DNA of 64,000 nucleotides from Chromobacterium sp. IIBBL 290-4. GTDB lineage: Bacteria > Pseudomonadota > Gammaproteobacteria > Burkholderiales > Chromobacteriaceae. This document shows, piece after piece, positions 9,994 to 43,178 of the stretch. Position numbers and translations under genes: made by a program. Where the stretch lies: positions 1,550,001 to 1,614,000 of the forward strand of contig NZ_CP100128.1 in the NCBI RefSeq assembly GCF_024207115.1. Reading direction: 5' to 3'. The notes beneath the pieces are model-generated. The model was not told the origin of the DNA. It searched no databases and saw only the letters and a list, made by a program, of their open reading frames with translations. Each line of letters begins with the position of its first letter. The first letter of the stretch is position 1.

Positions 9994-10005
9994 ATCAGCT
10001 CCATC

Positions 10006-10032
10006 AAAAAACGCCCGAATGGGCGTTTTTTT
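10006..10032. terminator. bidirectional intrinsic terminator, pheC / waaA
   Basis: Stem AAAAAACGCCC / GGGCGTTTTTT with GAAT loop between two convergent genes. T-runs exist on both strands, so it can stop transcription from pheC and from waaA. Confidence 0.9.
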
Positions 10033-10057
10033 TACTCATCGGCAAACGACGCGCGCG

Positions 10058-11314
10058 TCATAGCAGCCGTTTCAGCTCGGCCAACATCCGCTCGCTGGCG
10101 CCGCGGTGCGCTTGGCTGAAGCGCGCCGCGCCCTGCTTCATCGCCTCCAATTCGGCCGGCTCGGCCAGCAGGGCCAAGGCTTCCGACACCAGCTGGCCGG
10201 CATCGCCCACCTGGCGGCCGGCGCCGGAGGCCTGCGAATCGGCGGCGGCTTGCTGGAAATTGAACACCGAAGGCCCAAACAGGGCCGGCACGCCGGCCTG
10301 CGCCGGTTCGATCAGATTGTGGCAGCCAAACGGCAATAGGCTGCCGCCGATGAAGGCGATGTCGCAAGCGCCCAGATAGCCAAACATTTCCCCCATGCTG
10401 TCGCCCAGCCAAACACGGGTCTCCGGCGGCAAAGCCGCGTTGTCGCTGCGGCGGCGCAAGGAAAAACCGCGTTCGCCCGCCAGCGCCGCCACCGCATCCC
10501 AGCGTTCCGGATGGCGCGGCACCAACACCAGCAACACCTCTTTCACCGCCTCGCCGGCGGCGCGCCAGGCATCCAGAATCAGCGCCTCTTCCCCCTCGCG
10601 GGTGCTGGCGCACAGCAACACCGGACGCTCGCCGGCCCAGCCGCGGAACTGTTTGGCCAATTGCCATTGCGCTGGCGGAATGCCTATATCGTATTTCGTA
10701 CTGCCGGCAACGTAGATTTTTTCCGCGCCCAATTGACGCAAACGCTCGCCATCTTCCGTGGTTTGCGCGCAAACTGCGGATAATTTCGCCATTGCCGGGC
10801 CAATCAGGCCGCTGATCCTGCGATAGCCTTTCAGCGATTTATCTGACAATCTGGCATTCGCCAACATCAACGGTACGCCTTGATCGGACGCGGCATGAAT
10901 CAGGTTGGGCCACAGCTCGGTTTCCATCAGGATGCCGCAGCGCGGCTGGTAGGCGCGCAAAAAATCGGCGACCGCCTGTGGATAATCGTAAGGCAGGTAG
11001 CGCACTTCTGCGTCGGGGTACAGTTGCTCGGCGGTGGCGCGCCCGGTCGGCGTCATTTGCGTCAGCAAGAGCGGCGCGTCCGGCCATTCGCGGCGGATCG
11101 CCGCCACCAAGGGCTGCGCGGCGCGGGTTTCGCCCACCGATACCGCATGGATCCAGAACGCGCCCTGGGCCTTGGGTCGCAAAGCCTGGCCGAAGCGCTC
11201 GTCCCAATGTTGCAGATAAGCCGGCGCCTTGCGCGCCCGCTTGTTCAGATAGCGGCGGATCAGCGGCGTCAGCGCCCGCCATAGCGCGTTGTACAGCGCG
11301 CGCTGCCAGCTCAC
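10058..11314 (-). CDS. waaA: 3-deoxy-D-manno-octulosonic acid (Kdo) transferase
   Basis: 418 residues from GTG at 11314, which overlaps the TGA of waaC by 4 bp; this fits the usual KdtA length and start (SWQRALYNALW). An N-terminal membrane anchor is followed by the GT-B fold of family GT30: FWIHAVSVGETRAAQPLV, MTPTGRATAEQLYPDAEVRYLPYDYP, GILMETELWPNLI (the catalytic-region glutamates), and C-terminal FIGGSLLPFGCHNLIEPAQAGVPALFGPS. It adds Kdo to lipid A precursor at the inner face of the inner membrane. Cotranscribed with the heptosyltransferase that works next in the same pathway. Confidence 0.93.
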   Translation of the reverse strand: MSWQRALYNALWRALTPLIRRYLNKRARKAPAYLQHWDERFGQALRPKAQGAFWIHAVSVGETRAAQPLVAAIRREWPDAPLLLTQMTPTGRATAEQLYPDAEVRYLPYDYPQAVADFLRAYQPRCGILMETELWPNLIHAASDQGVPLMLANARLSDKSLKGYRRISGLIGPAMAKLSAVCAQTTEDGERLRQLGAEKIYVAGSTKYDIGIPPAQWQLAKQFRGWAGERPVLLCASTREGEEALILDAWRAAGEAVKEVLLVLVPRHPERWDAVAALAGERGFSLRRRSDNAALPPETRVWLGDSMGEMFGYLGACDIAFIGGSLLPFGCHNLIEPAQAGVPALFGPSVFNFQQAAADSQASGAGRQVGDAGQLVSEALALLAEPAELEAMKQGAARFSQAHRGASERMLAELKRLL

Positions 11315-12270
11315 GTCCAGTCCCGCCGCGTTTTCAGCGCCGCCAGCACCGCCCCCACCGTCGGGCATTGTCCGATATGGCCCAGATTGGTCGCCCACGG
11401 CGTTTCCACTACCCCGGTCTGCTGCGGATCGGTGTCGGTATAGATGGCCACCAGCGGCACGTTGAGCGCATTGGCCAGGTGGGCCAGGCCGGTATCGACG
11501 CCGATCACCGCGCTGGCATGGCCGAGCAAGCCCGCCGCTTCGATCAGATTCATCTTCGGCGCGACCACCGCCGCCGGCAGCAGCCCCGCCAGCCTTTCGG
11601 CGCGGGCTTTCTCCCGTTCATTGCCCCAGGGCAGCACCGTCACCATGTCATGCCGGCTGGACAGCTCCTCGCCCAAGGCCACCCAGTGCGCTTCCGGCCA
11701 CTCCTTGGAAGCGCGGCTGGTGGCGTGCAGCAGCACCGCATAGCGGCCGGACAGCATCCAGGCGGGCCGAGCGCCCTGCCGCACGCCGAATCGCGGCTCG
11801 CCTTCCGGCGCATAGCCGAAACTCAGGCCGAACAGGCGGCGGTTGCGCTCGATCGCCGACAGCTTGCGCGAAACCGCATGCTTTTTATCGTAAAACAGGC
11901 TGGCCAGCGATTCGCGGGCGCTTTTCCAATCCAGACCGGCCAAAGGCGCGCATGCCCAGCGCGACGGCAAGGCGCTCTTGATCAGCCCCTGGCTGTCCAG
12001 CACCAGGTCGAAGCTGGACTCGCGCAGCTTGCGCCGCAATGCGCCCAGCTCCCGCCACACCTCGGGTTTCCACAGCCCTTTGCGCCAACGGCGCCAGCTC
12101 AGCGTCAGCACCTCGTCCACTTGCGGATGCAGGCGGGCGATGTCGGCAAAGCTGTCCTCGGCCAGCCAGCTCAGCCGGATATTGGGGTAATGCGTCTTCA
12201 GCTCGGTGATGGCGGGCCAGGTGTGGATCAGATCCCCCATCGACGAGGTGCGCACAATCAGCACATTCAT
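11311..12270 (-). CDS. waaC: lipopolysaccharide heptosyltransferase I
   Basis: About 319 residues of the GT9 family. It begins MNVLIVRTSSMGDLIHTWPAI, and near the C-terminus has VIGVDTGLAHLANALNVPLVAIYTDTDP, the ADP-heptose-binding block. It adds the first L-glycero-D-manno-heptose to Kdo2-lipid A. The next gene, waaA, makes its acceptor, and their reading frames overlap. I prefer the ATG at 12270 by comparison with family starts; ATG at 12273 or 12282 are possible because no ribosome site decides it. The upstream region is the DnaA-box cluster. Confidence 0.92.
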   Translation of the reverse strand: MNVLIVRTSSMGDLIHTWPAITELKTHYPNIRLSWLAEDSFADIARLHPQVDEVLTLSWRRWRKGLWKPEVWRELGALRRKLRESSFDLVLDSQGLIKSALPSRWACAPLAGLDWKSARESLASLFYDKKHAVSRKLSAIERNRRLFGLSFGYAPEGEPRFGVRQGARPAWMLSGRYAVLLHATSRASKEWPEAHWVALGEELSSRHDMVTVLPWGNEREKARAERLAGLLPAAVVAPKMNLIEAAGLLGHASAVIGVDTGLAHLANALNVPLVAIYTDTDPQQTGVVETPWATNLGHIGQCPTVGAVLAALKTRRDWT

Positions 12271-13363
12271 CATGGCGCGCATTGTACCCGAGGGGGCTTG
12301 TGGTTAACCAAGCAAAATCCTTCTCAATCGATTGTGGATAAATGGCTGTGAATAAAAATGTCCATATTTATCCACAAACCCTCCCATGCTTGCGCAGTGC
12401 AATAATCCAAGGGCTACCCACAGGACAAGCATATGAAACACAAGCTTTTTTTTGGCTTGTCCACAAAAAATCGCGCCTTCAACATTTTCATCATTTTATA
12501 GCTGCGTTAATGAAAAACTGCTGAGACCGGACTGCGTGGGCGCAAAAAAAACTACTGCACAGGCCGCTCGGCAAAACCGGTAAGCAGAATGTGGACAACT
12601 CGGGTTTTGTCTACAGACTCAAACTTATCCACAACTCGTCACCGGCTTGCAGAACCAGCTAACAACAGGATGAGATGTTTATCAATACATTGAAAATTAA
12701 GGATTAAAACCACTTACCCACAAGGGAAGGCAAGCTTCTACCAGTTTCATCCTTTTAAAAATGGGAATTCTTAGAAAAGAAAGTCGTACTGAAAAACCTG
12801 GGCTGCCCTTAACAAAACCGCGGTGTGCAAACCACTAAAAACCGTCTTCAGAAATGCAAAACGACAAGACAAGCTGGCTGACGTCATCACCGAGTGGCTT
12901 AGAACAACGTCAATAGCTTCTGCCTATTTCGCCAAAGTTATCCACGAAACCATGCTTGGCAACACGTGGCGAAACGATTCGAGCCAAGCGGAATCTAGCG
13001 AAGAAAAACTTAATTTTTATTGAAGATCAATGAGTTGAGATGAAACAGCGCGCTCCGCCGCTGGCATCGCCAGTCCTGTCGCCAGGACGCGCAAGGCCAA
13101 ATCAGGGTTTGCTCAGGGCGCTGACTGGAATGGCGGCGCTCGGCAATGACAGGTAATCGGATGGTCTTTATCGATAAACAGCCGGGGCCATGGGGACGAG
13201 CCAGCCGGTAGCTGTGGAAAATCCGGAGCGTGCCGGCGTTCCTCTTCCAAAACCATGGATGCACTCAGCTGTTCGTCCACAAGTTTGTCCTGATCGGAGC
13301 GGAGCAGGAGGTTTGGCTTGAACAAAACATTCCGATAGCATGATGTTTTGCTTGGAGCGAAGC
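12271..13363. other. 1.1-kb gene-free region, left two thirds AT-rich with DnaA boxes
   Basis: Separates divergent waaC and a GNAT gene. Between 12300 and 12950 the base composition is far richer in A+T than the surroundings and carries the DnaA-box cluster described separately. Short open stretches (for example 12823-13023, +) lack ribosome sites and recognisable proteins. From 13030 to 13340 composition returns to normal; I see nothing interpretable there apart from the GNAT ribosome site at 13352. No tRNA or small RNA structure was recognised. Confidence 0.6.
12333..12946. other. DnaA-box cluster with IHF-type site: candidate oriC or DnaA-titration locus
   Basis: Four perfect TTATNCACA boxes: 12333-12341 (-), 12347-12355 (-, TTATTCACA), 12368-12376 (+) and 12625-12633 (+). 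One-mismatch boxes lie at 12457-12465, 12590-12598, 12714-12722 and 12938-12946. An exact IHF consensus (WATCAANNNNTTR) lies at 12680-12692 beside AT-rich DNA. The first three boxes sit within 44 bp in mixed orientation, as in replication origins. No dnaA, dnaN, gidA or parAB is in the window, so whether it is the chromosomal origin, a datA-like sink or a regulatory site cannot be settled here. Confidence 0.55.
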
Positions 13364-13831
13364 ATGACTGACGCGCAGATTTTGATTCGTCTGATGACCG
13401 AGGCCGACATCGCCGCCGTGGCCAAGCTGTGCGGCGACCTCGACTACCCCACCGATCCGGACACCTTGGCGGCGCGCTATGCCGCAGTGCGGGCGTTTCC
13501 CGACAATGAGATCTGGGTGGCGGAATGCGCTGGCCAAGTGGCGGGCTGGGTCCATGGCCATGGCGGGCATTTGCTGGAAGCCAGCAGCTATGTGGAGATA
13601 GGCGGCATCGTCGTCGATCCGGCCTATCATCGCTTGGGCATCGGCCGTTTGCTGCTGGCGGCCTGCGAGCGATGGGCGTATCAGCGCGGCTACGCCCGCA
13701 TCCGCCTGCGCTCCGGCATGCAGCGGACCGGCGCTCACGACTTTTACCGGCGGATCGGTTACCAGCAGAAAAATACCAGTCTGACCTTCGCCTTGGATCT
13801 GCCAAGACAGCATCCGCAGACGGCTGGATAA
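13364..13831 (+). CDS. GNAT-family N-acetyltransferase
   Basis: 155 residues from ATG 13364, chosen because GGAG lies 8 bp upstream; a longer reading from 13340 has no ribosome site. The GNAT fold is shown by motif A, VEIGGIVVDPAYHRLGIGRLLLAACERWA, with the Q/RxxGxG/A acetyl-CoA loop as HRLGIG, and motif B, HDFYRRIGYQ. Substrate unknown. An LD-carboxypeptidase follows after 12 bp and probably shares the transcript. Confidence 0.88.
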   Translation: MTDAQILIRLMTEADIAAVAKLCGDLDYPTDPDTLAARYAAVRAFPDNEIWVAECAGQVAGWVHGHGGHLLEASSYVEIGGIVVDPAYHRLGIGRLLLAACERWAYQRGYARIRLRSGMQRTGAHDFYRRIGYQQKNTSLTFALDLPRQHPQTAG

Positions 13832-13843
13832 GAAAGGGCAAAC

Positions 13844-14839
13844 ATGCAAATACGCTTCCCACCCGCCTTGAAACCCGGCGACGCCATCGCCGTCACCGCC
13901 TTTTCCTCCGGCGTGCATCCGCAGCTGCATGGCCAATTGGATCAGGCCTTGGCCGTACTGCGCGCGCGCGGCTATCGCGTGATAGAGGGCCAATGCCTGC
14001 GCGAGGAGAAATACGACGCCAGCGCGCCGGCCGCCGCGCGTTTGGCCGAGTTGCGGCGTTTCCTGTTCGATCCCGAGATCCACGCCATCCTGCCTCCCTG
14101 GGGCGGCGAGCGGGCGATAGAGTTATTGCTAGGTCTGGATTTCGCCGCCTTGGCCGCATTGCCGCCCAAATGGCTGGCCGGCTTCTCCGACGTGTCCACC
14201 GTGATGACGCCGCTGGCGCTGCTATCGGGCTGGGGCACGCTGCATGGCCCCAATCTGATGGATTTGCCGCTGAAGGAGCGGGCGTTCGGCAATGAGGCGC
14301 TGCTGGCGGCGATGGAAACCGGCGCGCCGCCGGCGCAGGAAAGCCATCCGCAGTATTGGAAATGGAACGAGCCAGGCAAGACCTTCGCCAACCGCGTGCG
14401 GCTGCTGGACGGCGGCGCCGGAAAAATGGCAGGCCGGTTGATAGGCGGCTGCCTGGATGTGCTGGTGTCGCTGCAGGGATCGCCGTATTTCGATCTGACG
14501 GCGTTTAAACGCGAACCGGCCATTCTGTACCTGGAAAACGTCGAACTCGCGCCCTGCGCCGTTTTAAGGGCCCTGGCGGGCCTCAGGCTGTCCGGGATGC
14601 TCGACGGCCTGTCCGGCCTGATATTGGGCCGCAGCAGCGCTCAGGACGCCGCGGACGGGCAGGCATTGCGCTATGAGGACGCTGTGCGCGCCGCGCTGGA
14701 CGGTTTGCCGTATCCGGTGGCGATCGATGCCGACATCGGCCATGTGCCGCCGCAATGGACGCTGTTGAACGGCGCCTGGGCGGTTCTTGAGGTGTTCGGG
14801 GAAGGCCGCGCCCGACTCAGCCAGCGGCTGGCCAAGTAG
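13844..14839 (+). CDS. S66-family LD-carboxypeptidase (LdcA/MccF-like)
   Basis: 331 residues. S66 hallmarks: N-terminal LKPGDAIAVTAFSSG, ILPPWGGERAIELL, nucleophilic Ser in GFSDVS, and the Glu and His of the Ser-Glu-His triad in YLENVE and DIGHVPP. LdcA removes the terminal D-alanine from murein tetrapeptides during recycling; the related MccF cleaves microcin C-type nucleotide-peptides. No signal peptide, so it acts in the cytoplasm as expected for recycling. Ribosome site AAGAAAGG before ATG. It is the second gene after a GNAT. I cannot separate LdcA from MccF activity by eye. Confidence 0.88.
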   Translation: MQIRFPPALKPGDAIAVTAFSSGVHPQLHGQLDQALAVLRARGYRVIEGQCLREEKYDASAPAAARLAELRRFLFDPEIHAILPPWGGERAIELLLGLDFAALAALPPKWLAGFSDVSTVMTPLALLSGWGTLHGPNLMDLPLKERAFGNEALLAAMETGAPPAQESHPQYWKWNEPGKTFANRVRLLDGGAGKMAGRLIGGCLDVLVSLQGSPYFDLTAFKREPAILYLENVELAPCAVLRALAGLRLSGMLDGLSGLILGRSSAQDAADGQALRYEDAVRAALDGLPYPVAIDADIGHVPPQWTLLNGAWAVLEVFGEGRARLSQRLAK

Positions 14840-14870
14840 GGCGGAAGCCCGGCCCGCCGGGCGTTCCGCC
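14840..14870 (+). terminator. hairpin after LD-carboxypeptidase gene
   Basis: Two stacked stems, GGCGGAA/TTCCGCC (14840-14846, 14864-14870) and CCCGGC/GCCGGG, immediately after the TAG stop. There is no T-run, so it may be a Rho-dependent or mRNA-stabilising hairpin rather than a classic terminator. Confidence 0.45.
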
Positions 14871-15045
14871 TAAGTCATGAGTTGGAAAGTGGGAGAGAGA
14901 CGGAAGCAGGGCTGCATGCCTGCGGTCAGTAGCCAGGCGTTCCGCGGGATAAACGGCAGGGCATGCAAGGCTTGCTCGCGCGGATGCCGCGACAAAAATG
15001 CGTCGGCAAACCAGTTTGTCCACGCAATATGATGGGGAAGATGGC

Positions 15046-15073
15046 GGCAGATCGCCCCTTTGGGGCATCTGCC
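15046..15073 (-). terminator. hairpin downstream of AAC(6')-like gene
   Basis: Stem GGCAGATcGCCCC with GGGGCaTCTGCC and TTT loop, 18 bp past the stop of the acetyltransferase on the minus strand. No clear T-run; called as a probable transcript end only from its position. Confidence 0.4.
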
Positions 15074-15090
15074 CTACAGGGGAGCGGGCT

Positions 15091-15555
15091 TCACAGCGCC
15101 ATGCGGTAGAACACCACGCGCTCGGTTTCCTCGAAGCCCAGGGCCAGATGGGCGGCTTGGGAGGCGGCATTGTCCAAGGCGGTGTCAGAGGCGAGCTCCA
15201 CGCAGCCGCGCTCGCGGGCCCAGGATTGGGCGGCGAGCAACAGCCGCGCGGCGACGCCGGCGCGTCTATGTTCGGGCGCGACGTACAGGCCTTCGATGAA
15301 ACCGACCGGCGAATGGTGGGTTCCATTGACGTAGTCATGGCGAAGAGCCAACTCGATCAGCCCAACCGCGCCGCCGGCCGCATCCATGGCGATGAAAGCC
15401 GCGTAACGGGCAGGCTCGGCGATTTGAGCATCGATCTCCCGCTGGTGTTCATCGGCCGGGCAGTCCGGCCACAGCGCGGCGCGCAGCTTCCGCCAGTCAT
15501 TGAGATGGGCTGGGCAGGAGGGGGCGAACAGAATATCGGCTAAGGGATTTTTCAT
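15091..15555 (-). CDS. AAC(6')-type aminoglycoside N-acetyltransferase
   Basis: 154 residues of the GNAT fold, closely resembling chromosomal AAC(6')-I enzymes: LRAALWPDCPADEH near the N-terminus, VNGTHHSPVGFIEGLYVAPEHRRAGVAARLL for the acetyl-CoA loop, then ELASDTALDNAASQAAHLALGFEETERVVFYR. These blocks are characteristic of that resistance family, which acetylates the 6'-amino group of kanamycin, tobramycin and amikacin. It is flanked by ordinary housekeeping genes with no mobile element, so it looks intrinsic. Actual resistance depends on expression and substrate range. A generic GNAT is the alternative. Confidence 0.75.
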   Translation of the reverse strand: MKNPLADILFAPSCPAHLNDWRKLRAALWPDCPADEHQREIDAQIAEPARYAAFIAMDAAGGAVGLIELALRHDYVNGTHHSPVGFIEGLYVAPEHRRAGVAARLLLAAQSWARERGCVELASDTALDNAASQAAHLALGFEETERVVFYRMAL

Positions 15556-15628
15556 AGCTTGGGCGGGTGGCTCGGGTTCTCGTTGATGAGAGAGAAGCGG
15601 CTGGATGGAGAAGTTCCTCGCGGCTTGA

Positions 15629-16939
15629 TCATATCGACTCGAACTCCGGCTGCGGCAGGTGGTGGCGCTGCACCAGGATCTTGTCGACCCGGGTTTTGTC
15701 CATGTCCACCACTTCGAAGCTGAAGCCGTTCCATTCGAAACGGTCGGTGACGCTGGGGATGCGGCCCAGCTGGAACATCACCACGCCGCCCAGGGTGTGG
15801 ACGTTGCCGCCGGTCTCGCCGGGCAGCTCGTTTTCCAGTTCGAAAAACTCGCGGAAGCGGTCCGGCGACAGCATGCCGTCCACCAGCCAGCTGCCATCCT
15901 CTCTTTGCACGATCTCGTCATTTTCGCCGCCTATGGCCGGCATATCGCCGACTATCGCTTCCATTACGTCATTGATCGACACCAGGCCTTCCAGCTCGCC
16001 GTATTCGTCCACCACCAGCGCGCTGTGGCTGCGCGCCTGCTTGAATTGCTCCAATAACTGCATCAAGGTGCAGGTGGCCGGCACGTACAGCGGCGGCGTC
16101 AGGTCGGCGGCGAAATCCACGGTTTCGCCGCGCAGCAAACGGTCCAGCAAGCGTTTGGCGTTGAGTATGCCCAACAGCTGGTCGGTGTCGCCGCGGCAGA
16201 CCGGAAAGTGGCTGAAGCTATGTTGCAGCAGGGTGGCGCGGATGGCTTCGGGGCCATCCTCCAGGTCCAGGATCACCACGTCCTTGCGCGGCGTCATCAC
16301 TGAGGCCGCCTTGCGGTTGTCCAGCCGGAAAATGTTTTCCACCAGCTCTTGCTCGGCGCGGTCGAACACCCCCTCGTCGGCGCCTTGTTCCATCAGCACC
16401 CGGATTTCATCCTCGGTGATGGAGGGCTCGTCGCTTTTTTTCGCGCCCAGCAGCCGCAGCAAGCCATCGGTAACCTGGCTGAACACCCGCACCAGCGGTG
16501 CGCACAGCTGGGACAGCAGCTGCATGGGCCGCGCCAGCGCCATCGCCACGCCTTCCGGATTCAGCAAGGCCAGCCGCTTGGGCACCAGTTCGCCGAAGAT
16601 CAGCGACAATGTGGTGATGAACAGCACCATCAGCGCCACCGACAGCGGCTTGCTATACGGCGCCAGCATGGGGATCAGGATCAGCCGCTCGCGCAGATGC
16701 TCGGACAGCGCGGCTTCGCCGTAAACGCCGGACAGAATGCTGATGGAGGTGATGCCCACCTGGACGGTGGACAGGAAGCGGGTGGGCTCGGCGGCCAGCT
16801 TGAGCGCGGCGCGCGCGCCCTTGTGGCCGTCATCGGCCTTTTGCTGCAAGCGAACCTTGCGGGAGGAGACGATGGCGATCTCGGCCATGGCGAAGACTGC
16901 GTTCAGCAGCACCAGGCCTAGCAACAGCAGGATTTCCAC
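15629..16939 (-). CDS. CNNM/CorC-type membrane protein with CBS pair
   Basis: 436 residues: an N-terminal CNNM (DUF21) domain with about four membrane helices (1-150; MEILLLLGLVLLNAVFAMAEIAIVSS), a CBS pair at about 205-335 (VMTPRKDVVILDLED and VVDEYGELEGLVSINDVMEAIVGD) and a C-terminal CorC_HlyC domain at about 350-430 (DGMLSPDRFREFFELE). The family is involved in magnesium and cobalt homeostasis. A hemolysin label found in older annotation has little support. Single gene; ung lies upstream on the same strand. Confidence 0.9.
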   Translation of the reverse strand: MEILLLLGLVLLNAVFAMAEIAIVSSRKVRLQQKADDGHKGARAALKLAAEPTRFLSTVQVGITSISILSGVYGEAALSEHLRERLILIPMLAPYSKPLSVALMVLFITTLSLIFGELVPKRLALLNPEGVAMALARPMQLLSQLCAPLVRVFSQVTDGLLRLLGAKKSDEPSITEDEIRVLMEQGADEGVFDRAEQELVENIFRLDNRKAASVMTPRKDVVILDLEDGPEAIRATLLQHSFSHFPVCRGDTDQLLGILNAKRLLDRLLRGETVDFAADLTPPLYVPATCTLMQLLEQFKQARSHSALVVDEYGELEGLVSINDVMEAIVGDMPAIGGENDEIVQREDGSWLVDGMLSPDRFREFFELENELPGETGGNVHTLGGVVMFQLGRIPSVTDRFEWNGFSFEVVDMDKTRVDKILVQRHHLPQPEFESI

Positions 16940-21442: not shown

Positions 21443-21494
21443 TTGTGGATAAAACCTGAAAAGGGCGAACGCTTGTGGATAAGCGTTCGCCCTT
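21443..21494. terminator. bidirectional hairpin terminator with embedded DnaA boxes
   Basis: Stem AAGGGCGAACGCTT (21461-21474) with AAGCGTTCGCCCTT (21481-21494) between convergent DUF2789 and the AIG2-like gene. TGTGGATAA boxes lie at 21444-21452 and 21474-21482, the second in the hairpin loop. The minus strand has a T-rich tail. This element recurs elsewhere (see findings). Confidence 0.75.
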
Positions 21495-41261: not shown

Positions 41262-41301
41262 TTGTGGATATTTCTTCAAAAACGGAAAGTCTGTGGATAA
41301 A
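41262..41301. repeat. paired DnaA-box intergenic element
   Basis: TGTGGATAT at 41263-41271 and TGTGGATAA at 41292-41300, 29 bp apart, between the Lrp gene and the chemoreceptor gene. Matches two further pairs at 21444/21474 and 43103/43132 in box sequence and spacing. No hairpin here. Confidence 0.5.
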
Positions 41302-43062: not shown

Positions 43063-43178
43063 CGAGGAAATGGCCGTCGTGAGTGGTCTTGGCGGAATGG
43101 GTTGTGGATAAAATCTGGAAATGCGGATGCTTGTGGATAAGGGCGAGGCGGCGGCCTCGCCCGTTTTGCTGCAGCGAA
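43063..43178. other. intergenic sequence with DnaA-box pair and terminator
   Basis: With the tandem repeat this makes a 339-bp gene-free stretch. Contains TGTGGATAA at 43103-43111 and 43132-43140 (29 bp apart), then the terminator at 43141-43167. Confidence 0.7.
43141..43167. terminator. intrinsic terminator, sugar ABC operon end / exporter
   Basis: Stem GGGCGAGGC / GCCTCGCCC followed by GTTTTG on the plus strand; convergent position suggests use by both sides. A TGTGGATAA box directly precedes it. Confidence 0.7.

Follow-up and report, generated by a model that had tools for sequence, protein, structure and literature searches.

A conserved DnaA-box array with a tandemly duplicated module, far from dnaA, is very probably the chromosomal replication origin of a Chromobacterium species

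The DNA analysed here (the window, 64,000 nucleotides) comprises bases 1,550,001–1,614,000 of the complete 5,117,379 bp (5.12 Mb) chromosome of Chromobacterium sp. IIBBL 290-4. A waaC-like heptosyltransferase gene (11311–12282, minus strand) and a GNAT acetyltransferase gene (13340–13831, plus strand) diverge, as an earlier note on this DNA had described, from a stretch that holds a cluster of DnaA boxes, with an LD-carboxypeptidase gene also lying to the right of the cluster. The stretch is as rich in A+T as the note had stated, with a G+C fraction of 0.425 in 12283–12781 and 0.476 in 12283–13339, against 0.641 for the whole window. It is free of genes over 1.1 kb in the window, but this gap is partly a scar, since in most relatives it measures about 500 bp and is followed by a glycosyltransferase gene. 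Positions 10001–16000 gave no Rfam match, ruling out a known RNA element at the locus.

Four exact TTATNCACA boxes start where the earlier note had placed them (12333, 12347, 12368 and 12625), whereas the single-mismatch boxes of the gene-free stretch number six (12299, 12457, 12590, 12714, 12938 and 13213) and not the four it had counted; a further one, at 12222, lies within waaC. The whole window contains 10 exact boxes against 0.40 expected, and none of 100 shuffles reached ten; in 12283–13339 the four exact boxes compare with a mean of 0.022 across 2,000 dinucleotide shuffles of that stretch, not one of which had four. The boxes are thus clustered beyond chance, one of the criteria for an oriC. 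Exact TTATCCACA occurs 39 times in the chromosome, and the cluster is the sole place where three fall inside about 300 bp. The array is limited by a box within waaC at one end and by a box within a former glycosyltransferase gene at the other (Table 1).

Table 1 Features of the putative origin region and its surroundings (window coordinates).
Feature	Position	Strand	Remarks
waaC-like heptosyltransferase (PF01075)	11311..12282	-	Conserved left neighbour of the array
Very probable oriC, whole conserved DnaA-box array	12222..12946	+	Offsets of boxes shared with relatives; GC skew changes sign and has its cumulative minimum here
DnaA box in waaC	12222..12230	-	One mismatch here; exact in most relatives
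DnaA box TTAACCACA	12299..12307	-	Sequence conserved
Module 1: boxes a1, b1, c1 and AT-rich segment	12333..12502	+	Box spacing of 35 and 89 bp shared with relatives
DnaA box a1	12333..12341	-	Exact match
Module 1 additional DnaA box (TTATTCACA)	12347..12355	-	Exact match
DnaA box b1	12368..12376	+	Exact match
DnaA box c1 (TTGTCCACA)	12457..12465	+	Single mismatch
Candidate DNA unwinding element 1	12477..12519	+	Conserved AT-rich segment past box c1
Module 2: boxes a2, b2, c2 and AT-rich segment	12590..12780	+	Spacing of module 1, offset 257 bp
DnaA box a2 (TTGTCCACA)	12590..12598	-	Single mismatch
DnaA box b2	12625..12633	+	Exact match
IHF-type site	12680..12692	+	Exact consensus in window; loosely conserved
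DnaA box c2 (TTACCCACA)	12714..12722	+	Single mismatch
Candidate DNA unwinding element 2	12735..12780	+	Begins CTT CTA, 12 nt past box c2
Likely remains of family-2 glycosyltransferase (waaE-like) gene	12781..13000	+	Open frame in 32 of 42 relatives
ATAG-N7-CTAT dyad	12913..12927	.	Within glycosyltransferase gene in relatives
Last DnaA box of array	12938..12946	+	Within glycosyltransferase gene in relatives
GNAT acetyltransferase gene	13340..13831	+	Right flank; diverges from waaC
Direct DnaA-box pair, 21 bp spacer	21444..21482	-	After thiC, 9 kb from oriC
Direct DnaA-box pair, 20 bp spacer	43103..43140	-	31 kb from oriC

GC skew across the window genome, determined from 20 samples of 20 kb together with the window, is negative in all samples on the arc that leads from 4.22 Mb past zero to the cluster, and positive on the arc from there to 3.86 Mb. 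The sign therefore switches at the cluster and between 3.86 and 4.22 Mb, two points approximately half a chromosome apart, and the cumulative minimum falls inside the window at about 13,000, so that a skew switch of the kind taken as a criterion for oriC is found at the site. The dnaA gene lies on the same chromosome at 1,266,055, a separation of 296 kb from the cluster, and the 20 kb surrounding it contain one exact DnaA box. These features make it very probable, as judged from sequence, that the DnaA-box cluster is the chromosomal replication origin (oriC) of this species. The earlier note's proposal of a replication locus away from dnaA is borne out, and two outcomes that it had named as counting against the reading, a skew minimum elsewhere and boxes lacking conservation in relatives, both turned out in its favour, the minimum falling at the cluster and the array being conserved.

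The same note had also raised a datA-like DnaA sink. Under that reading the cluster would be a datA- or DARS-like control locus and the real oriC would adjoin dnaA; DnaA boxes accompanied by an IHF-type site 296 kb from dnaA are what such a locus could look like, and E. coli datA is described as five boxes with an IHF site (PMC4585315). A DARS, for its part, is marked by a core of three DnaA boxes that stimulates the release of ADP. A datA-type control site is, however, one that stands apart from oriC, and with the skew minimum located here the sink reading is unsupported. With the skew switching at the cluster and not at dnaA, a single exact box inside the 20 kb around dnaA, and AT-rich segments in the array at the distance expected for an unwinding element, an oriC beside dnaA was rejected and a datA- or DARS-like role is highly improbable.

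The assignment of the cluster as oriC extends to relatives. In all five other complete Chromobacterium genomes (G005, G006, G009, G015 and G017) the skew passes from negative to positive across the orthologous locus, the nearest samples lying 3–16 kb off, with noise in the form of slightly negative samples past the locus (−0.009 at 1.815 Mb in G006, −0.004 at 3.84 Mb in G017 and −0.004 at 20 kb in G005). Across dnaA the sign is unchanged in four of these five, and in G017 it drops from 0.028 to −0.004. Outside the genus, the skew of G387 and G226 also switches at the locus, the weak samples flanking dnaA in G226 (−0.008 and 0.002) also differing in sign, and in G446 a sample 3–23 kb before the locus is already at 0.004. 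A control genome with an origin adjacent to dnaA, G061, shows the sign change across dnaA, although its 60 kb sample is slightly negative. Nine parS-like sites (at most two mismatches to the parS consensus) lie at genome positions 1,632,797–1,732,541, on one side of the putative oriC and 70–170 kb away; a control pattern gave one.

Adjacency to dnaA, a usual (non-defining) trait of oriC, is absent from all 19 family genomes measured, in which the distance is at least 15 kb. It amounts to 161–296 kb in six complete Chromobacterium genomes, 236 kb in G016, 15 kb in G022, 15–146 kb in ten other family genomes and about 0.08–0.18 Mb in G433, where it runs across the record start and was calculated with a rounded genome size. 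By position and strand, dnaA opposes the inferred fork direction in G000, G006, G009, G015 and G017 and is co-directional in G005; these differences in orientation among Chromobacterium suggest an inversion involving dnaA.

A scan with waaC alignment yielded 80 named loci, 77 of which were examined (L158, L167 and L173, with incomplete geometry, were left out). Of the 45 loci whose waaC is closest, 42 carry the array, with 2–9 exact boxes each and at least eight when one mismatch is allowed; they come from Chromobacterium, Aquitalea, Pseudogulbenkiania, Gulbenkiania, Craterilacuibacter, Crenobacter, Paludibacterium, Vogesella and some bacteria without a genus name. The 42-locus set used below is L106–L150 minus L135 and L136 (Cupriavidus, without the array) and L149 (Aquaspirillum, with another array); the exclusion of these three followed the array survey, so that counts ‘of 42’ refer to loci already known to be array-positive. 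Measured from the start of waaC, the box offsets hardly vary across Chromobacterium, and the array thus has the conservation at the same place in relatives that is a further criterion for oriC. Aquaspirillum serpens (L149) has about 15 DnaA boxes (at most one mismatch) upstream of waaC, several of them 11–12 bp apart, in an array that is larger. The two Cupriavidus loci have a waaC about 60% identical to the query and lack the origin array, perhaps as a result of gene transfer.

The position of the array between divergent genes would also suit a promoter-control region of these LPS genes. Against this, the array persists where no intact right-hand gene was found; of the 34 loci without the array (waaC of other Betaproteobacteria, counting both from Cupriavidus), one carries two exact boxes, two carry a single one and none carries three; and no sigma-70-like promoter was found in 12200–13400. 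That promoter control is the main function of the boxes is very improbable, and an origin remains the preferred reading.

The repeating unit within the origin array is a module made up of an inverted DnaA-box pair (a and b, 35 bp start to start), a third box (c) 88–90 bp further on and an AT-rich segment approximately 12 nt past it. With strict spacing, the module occurs twice in 36 of the 42 loci, once in four and not in two, and even a single one was absent from all 840 base-shuffled sequences. In the 36 loci the second copy lies 245–340 bp downstream of the first; this variable distance between modules of fixed internal spacing is what a functional unit would give. The conserved region spans about 12222–12946, and its main feature is the duplicated module, which the earlier note had not mentioned.

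In both modules the segment past box c exceeds 90% A+T at 39–45 nt (mean of 36 loci). Four of the 20 sites of lowest predicted stability in the window fall inside 12283–12781, one of them at 12477, so that an AT-rich segment beside a box pointing at it, a criterion for oriC, is present in terms of sequence and predicted stability. In module 2, the sequence CTTCTAC is kept in all 11 Chromobacterium and all seven Aquitalea loci aligned, module 1 being more variable; in the window, CTT CTA, 12 nt past box c2, forms two DnaA-trio-like triplets. By the strict basal-unwinding rule (at least three NAN trios, 0–16 nt from the box), the window modules were rejected as members, their longest runs being one (module 1) and two (module 2); across 37 twin arrays, the window included, eight of the first modules and 12 of the second conform to it.

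Between boxes b2 and c2, the perfect WATCAANNNNTTR (IHF consensus) reported by the earlier note is present at 12680–12692. What holds for the window does not extend letter for letter to relatives: only three of 36 have an exact match in module 2, one of these on the opposite strand. When one mismatch is allowed, a match between boxes b and c of module 2 is found in 24 of the 36 relatives, a count over both strands that carries no chance level, and conservation of an IHF site is possible on this sequence basis. No GATC occurs in 12283–13024, and in 12283–13339 the only ones are at 13025 and 13292; the locus is thus not GATC-rich as an oriC of the E. coli type is, and Dam/SeqA control of that type is not expected.

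Taken together, these elements suggest how the origin could work. DnaA would bind the boxes of both tandem modules, and a bending protein acting between b and c, IHF or another, would probably join the inverted pair with box c, the box proximal to the DNA unwinding element (DUE). From boxes a, b and c a DnaA filament would then grow and open the AT-rich segment approximately 12 nt past box c, and the opened segment would permit helicase loading and the departure of two forks.

Whether both segments would open bears on a second possibility, namely that the origin lies here but only one module opens (module 2, by its stronger sequence conservation), with module 1 as an accessory DnaA-binding half like oriC1 of Helicobacter and Bacillus. 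This is a strong contender, falling only a little short of even likelihood. The bipartite origins tested are described as unwinding in one half only (PMC5043019, PMC8235120), and the contrast between a constant CTTCTAC in module 2 and a variable module 1 in the aligned Chromobacterium and Aquitalea loci points the same way. On the other hand, module 1 has an AT-rich segment just as far from box c, one whose predicted stability is similar or slightly lower, and in six Vogesella-type loci (L144–L148 and L150) the longer trio-like run is in module 1.

The origin array extends into the neighbouring gene. In relatives, a family-2 glycosyltransferase gene (PF00535) begins where module 2 ends, and an intact frame was found in 32 of the 42 loci by rule (an open frame no shorter than 200 aa that carries one or the other of two motifs; ‘no intact gene’ below means none by this rule). 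Across these 32 loci, excess codon conservation is strongest in an eight-codon span that starts at alignment codon 73 and scores 37 against a median of 7, the score being a ranking and not a test because related genomes are not independent. With its neighbours, this span covers the codons for ATAG-N7-CTAT and GTTATCCAC, so that the dyad is under strong synonymous constraint in relatives. Isoleucine is encoded there by ATA in 88% of cases, against 14% of the isoleucines in these genes, and valine by GTT in 97%, against 13%. The dyad is present in 39 of 43 arrays (the 42 loci and the window), six of the 39 having no exact GTTATCCAC after it in the stretch searched. In five genomes without an intact gene, the window included, the 35-nt element is 66–89% identical to the consensus of 17 intact relatives, compared with 42–50% before it and 27–50% after it. 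Since the element outlasts the gene with higher identity than its flanks, the dyad and DnaA box seem to be kept for themselves, as an origin element independent of the glycosyltransferase. The dyad resembles a half site of OxyR or another LysR-type protein (T-N11-A), which may be coincidence.

A sequence-only model, R1, was built from 28 module sequences of 14 loci, whose genomes match by construction. In the window it matches module 1 at genome positions 1562368–1562508 and module 2 at 1562625–1562767. Of the 61 family genomes, 60 have two matches, neither more nor fewer; the exception, G437, is 84% complete. A simple DNA comparison (22 of 41 genomes) had left G011, of the same genus, without an origin; this was rejected, R1 finding both modules there, and that comparison therefore undercounts. 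A pattern of box plus CTTCTAC, found in 14 of 399 genomes of the order, is too strict, because it misses the window itself (box c2 is TTACCCACA).

Across the order, 133 of 300 genomes have an R1 match at E 0.01. The distance to dnaA was taken for 53 genomes picked from those with matches, 42 of them non-family. In 19 of these 42 a match lies within 2 kb of dnaA, as expected if R1 recognises origins, a proportion that is no estimate of frequency given the selection; in the other 23 the listed match is elsewhere, on another contig or tens to hundreds of kb away. A match is thus not by itself proof of an origin, and R1 recognises ordinary dnaA-linked origins too. An origin far from dnaA is probably not unique to Chromobacteriaceae.

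Outside the family, double R1 matches (at most about 450 bp apart) were found in family f51, where five genomes (G116, G155, G226, G256 and G286) of the six listed have them, and, among the matches listed, more weakly in at least G031, G099, G115, G154, G250 and G319. The twin arrangement may therefore reach beyond Chromobacteriaceae, and the duplication may be older or have arisen more than once. The f51 matches are separated by approximately 220–260 bp, and those of G226 lie about 0.4 Mb away from dnaA. Three f44 genomes (G223, locus L245; G253; G151) have two R1 matches on opposite strands, 1.3–3.4 kb apart and either 180–200 kb from dnaA or on another contig, perhaps a split origin.

DnaA boxes also recur near the origin as direct pairs. 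The pattern TTATCCACA-N18..23-TTATCCACA occurs 114 times in 18 of 19 genus genomes, the spacer being 20 or 21 bp by eye, against none for the reversed control pattern; such pairs are present in 37 of 61 family genomes and in three of 146 genomes outside the family, in a searched set that included four family members as well. Six complete Chromobacterium genomes contain 35 pairs, none of them further than 0.353 of a replichore from oriC; 29 are oriented towards it and 16 fall within 40 kb of it, where 0.7 would be expected in 2% of the chromosome; p-values for these positions overstate the case, since related genomes are not independent. The gene thiC lies inside a 5 kb stretch at 15 of 20 pairs, a figure that holds for pairs 8–23 kb from oriC on the same contig. 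For the remaining TTATCCACA sites of the window genome (24 sites, KS p 0.09) no clear concentration is seen. The two pairs of the window (Table 1) belong to this family-wide, origin-proximal set; a near-match to a pair is found at 41263–41300, and the box at 21474 spans the loop of a hairpin with T residues after it (by eye).

The direct pairs may take part in DnaA titration. A tentative and rather unlikely synthesis would be a duplicated Chromobacteriaceae origin in which two complete tandem modules of boxes, bend and unwinding segment are both opened (for example, for one helicase each), together with the gene-embedded element and a ring of origin-proximal direct box pairs that buffer DnaA once initiation has taken place.

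Among the papers listed, neither a Chromobacterium oriC nor a tandemly duplicated unwinding module appears in titles or abstract beginnings, a scope outside which lie DoriC, subscription papers and supplements; the location of the origin may already be in DoriC. An oriC is a known kind of locus; as far as checked, its tandemly duplicated unwinding module, the element embedded in a gene and the remoteness from dnaA together make this one a variant not described before. Such a clean internal duplication makes this a tractable family for asking whether one origin can use two unwinding elements, and its separable module halves offer a route to how two helicases are loaded. The locus also presents an origin element that constrains the coding sequence around it and survives the loss of the gene, and the origin-proximal paired boxes are a defined element for studying DnaA titration outside E. 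coli. Chromobacteriaceae genomes numbered from dnaA do not begin at the origin.

The left half of E. coli oriC consists of the DUE, the R1 box, an IHF site and further boxes, the same order as DUE, box c, IHF-like site, b and a in each module. E. coli oriC has one DUE and many GATC sites, whereas the array described here has two DUE-like segments and lacks GATC in 12283–13024. As here, E. coli oriC lies apart from dnaA (PMC8287927), and its DUE and R1 box are separated by 13 bp (PMC8235120), close to the 12 nt between DUE and box c in each module. The spacing in module 2 (box c, 12 nt, CTT CTA) also resembles the basal unwinding system, for which a spacer peak of 10–13 bp and a rule of at least three DnaA-trios 0–16 nt past the box are given (PMC8287927); the window has two trio-like triplets, not three.

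Laribacter hongkongensis is a relative of Chromobacterium. Its oriC has been predicted by Ori-Finder, with eight DnaA boxes (PMC3135505). The bipartite origins of Helicobacter pylori and Bacillus subtilis likewise have two DnaA-box clusters in one origin (PMC5043019, PMC8235120); those clusters flank dnaA and only one contains a DUE, whereas here a single type of module is repeated in tandem, far from dnaA, and either copy has an AT-rich segment. DnaA boxes as sinks, in datA and DARS, and their enrichment near the origin are described for E. coli, the enrichment also for Salmonella (PMC12371093); that account speaks of density, whereas the origin-proximal sites of Chromobacterium are direct pairs with a fixed spacer of 20–21 bp.
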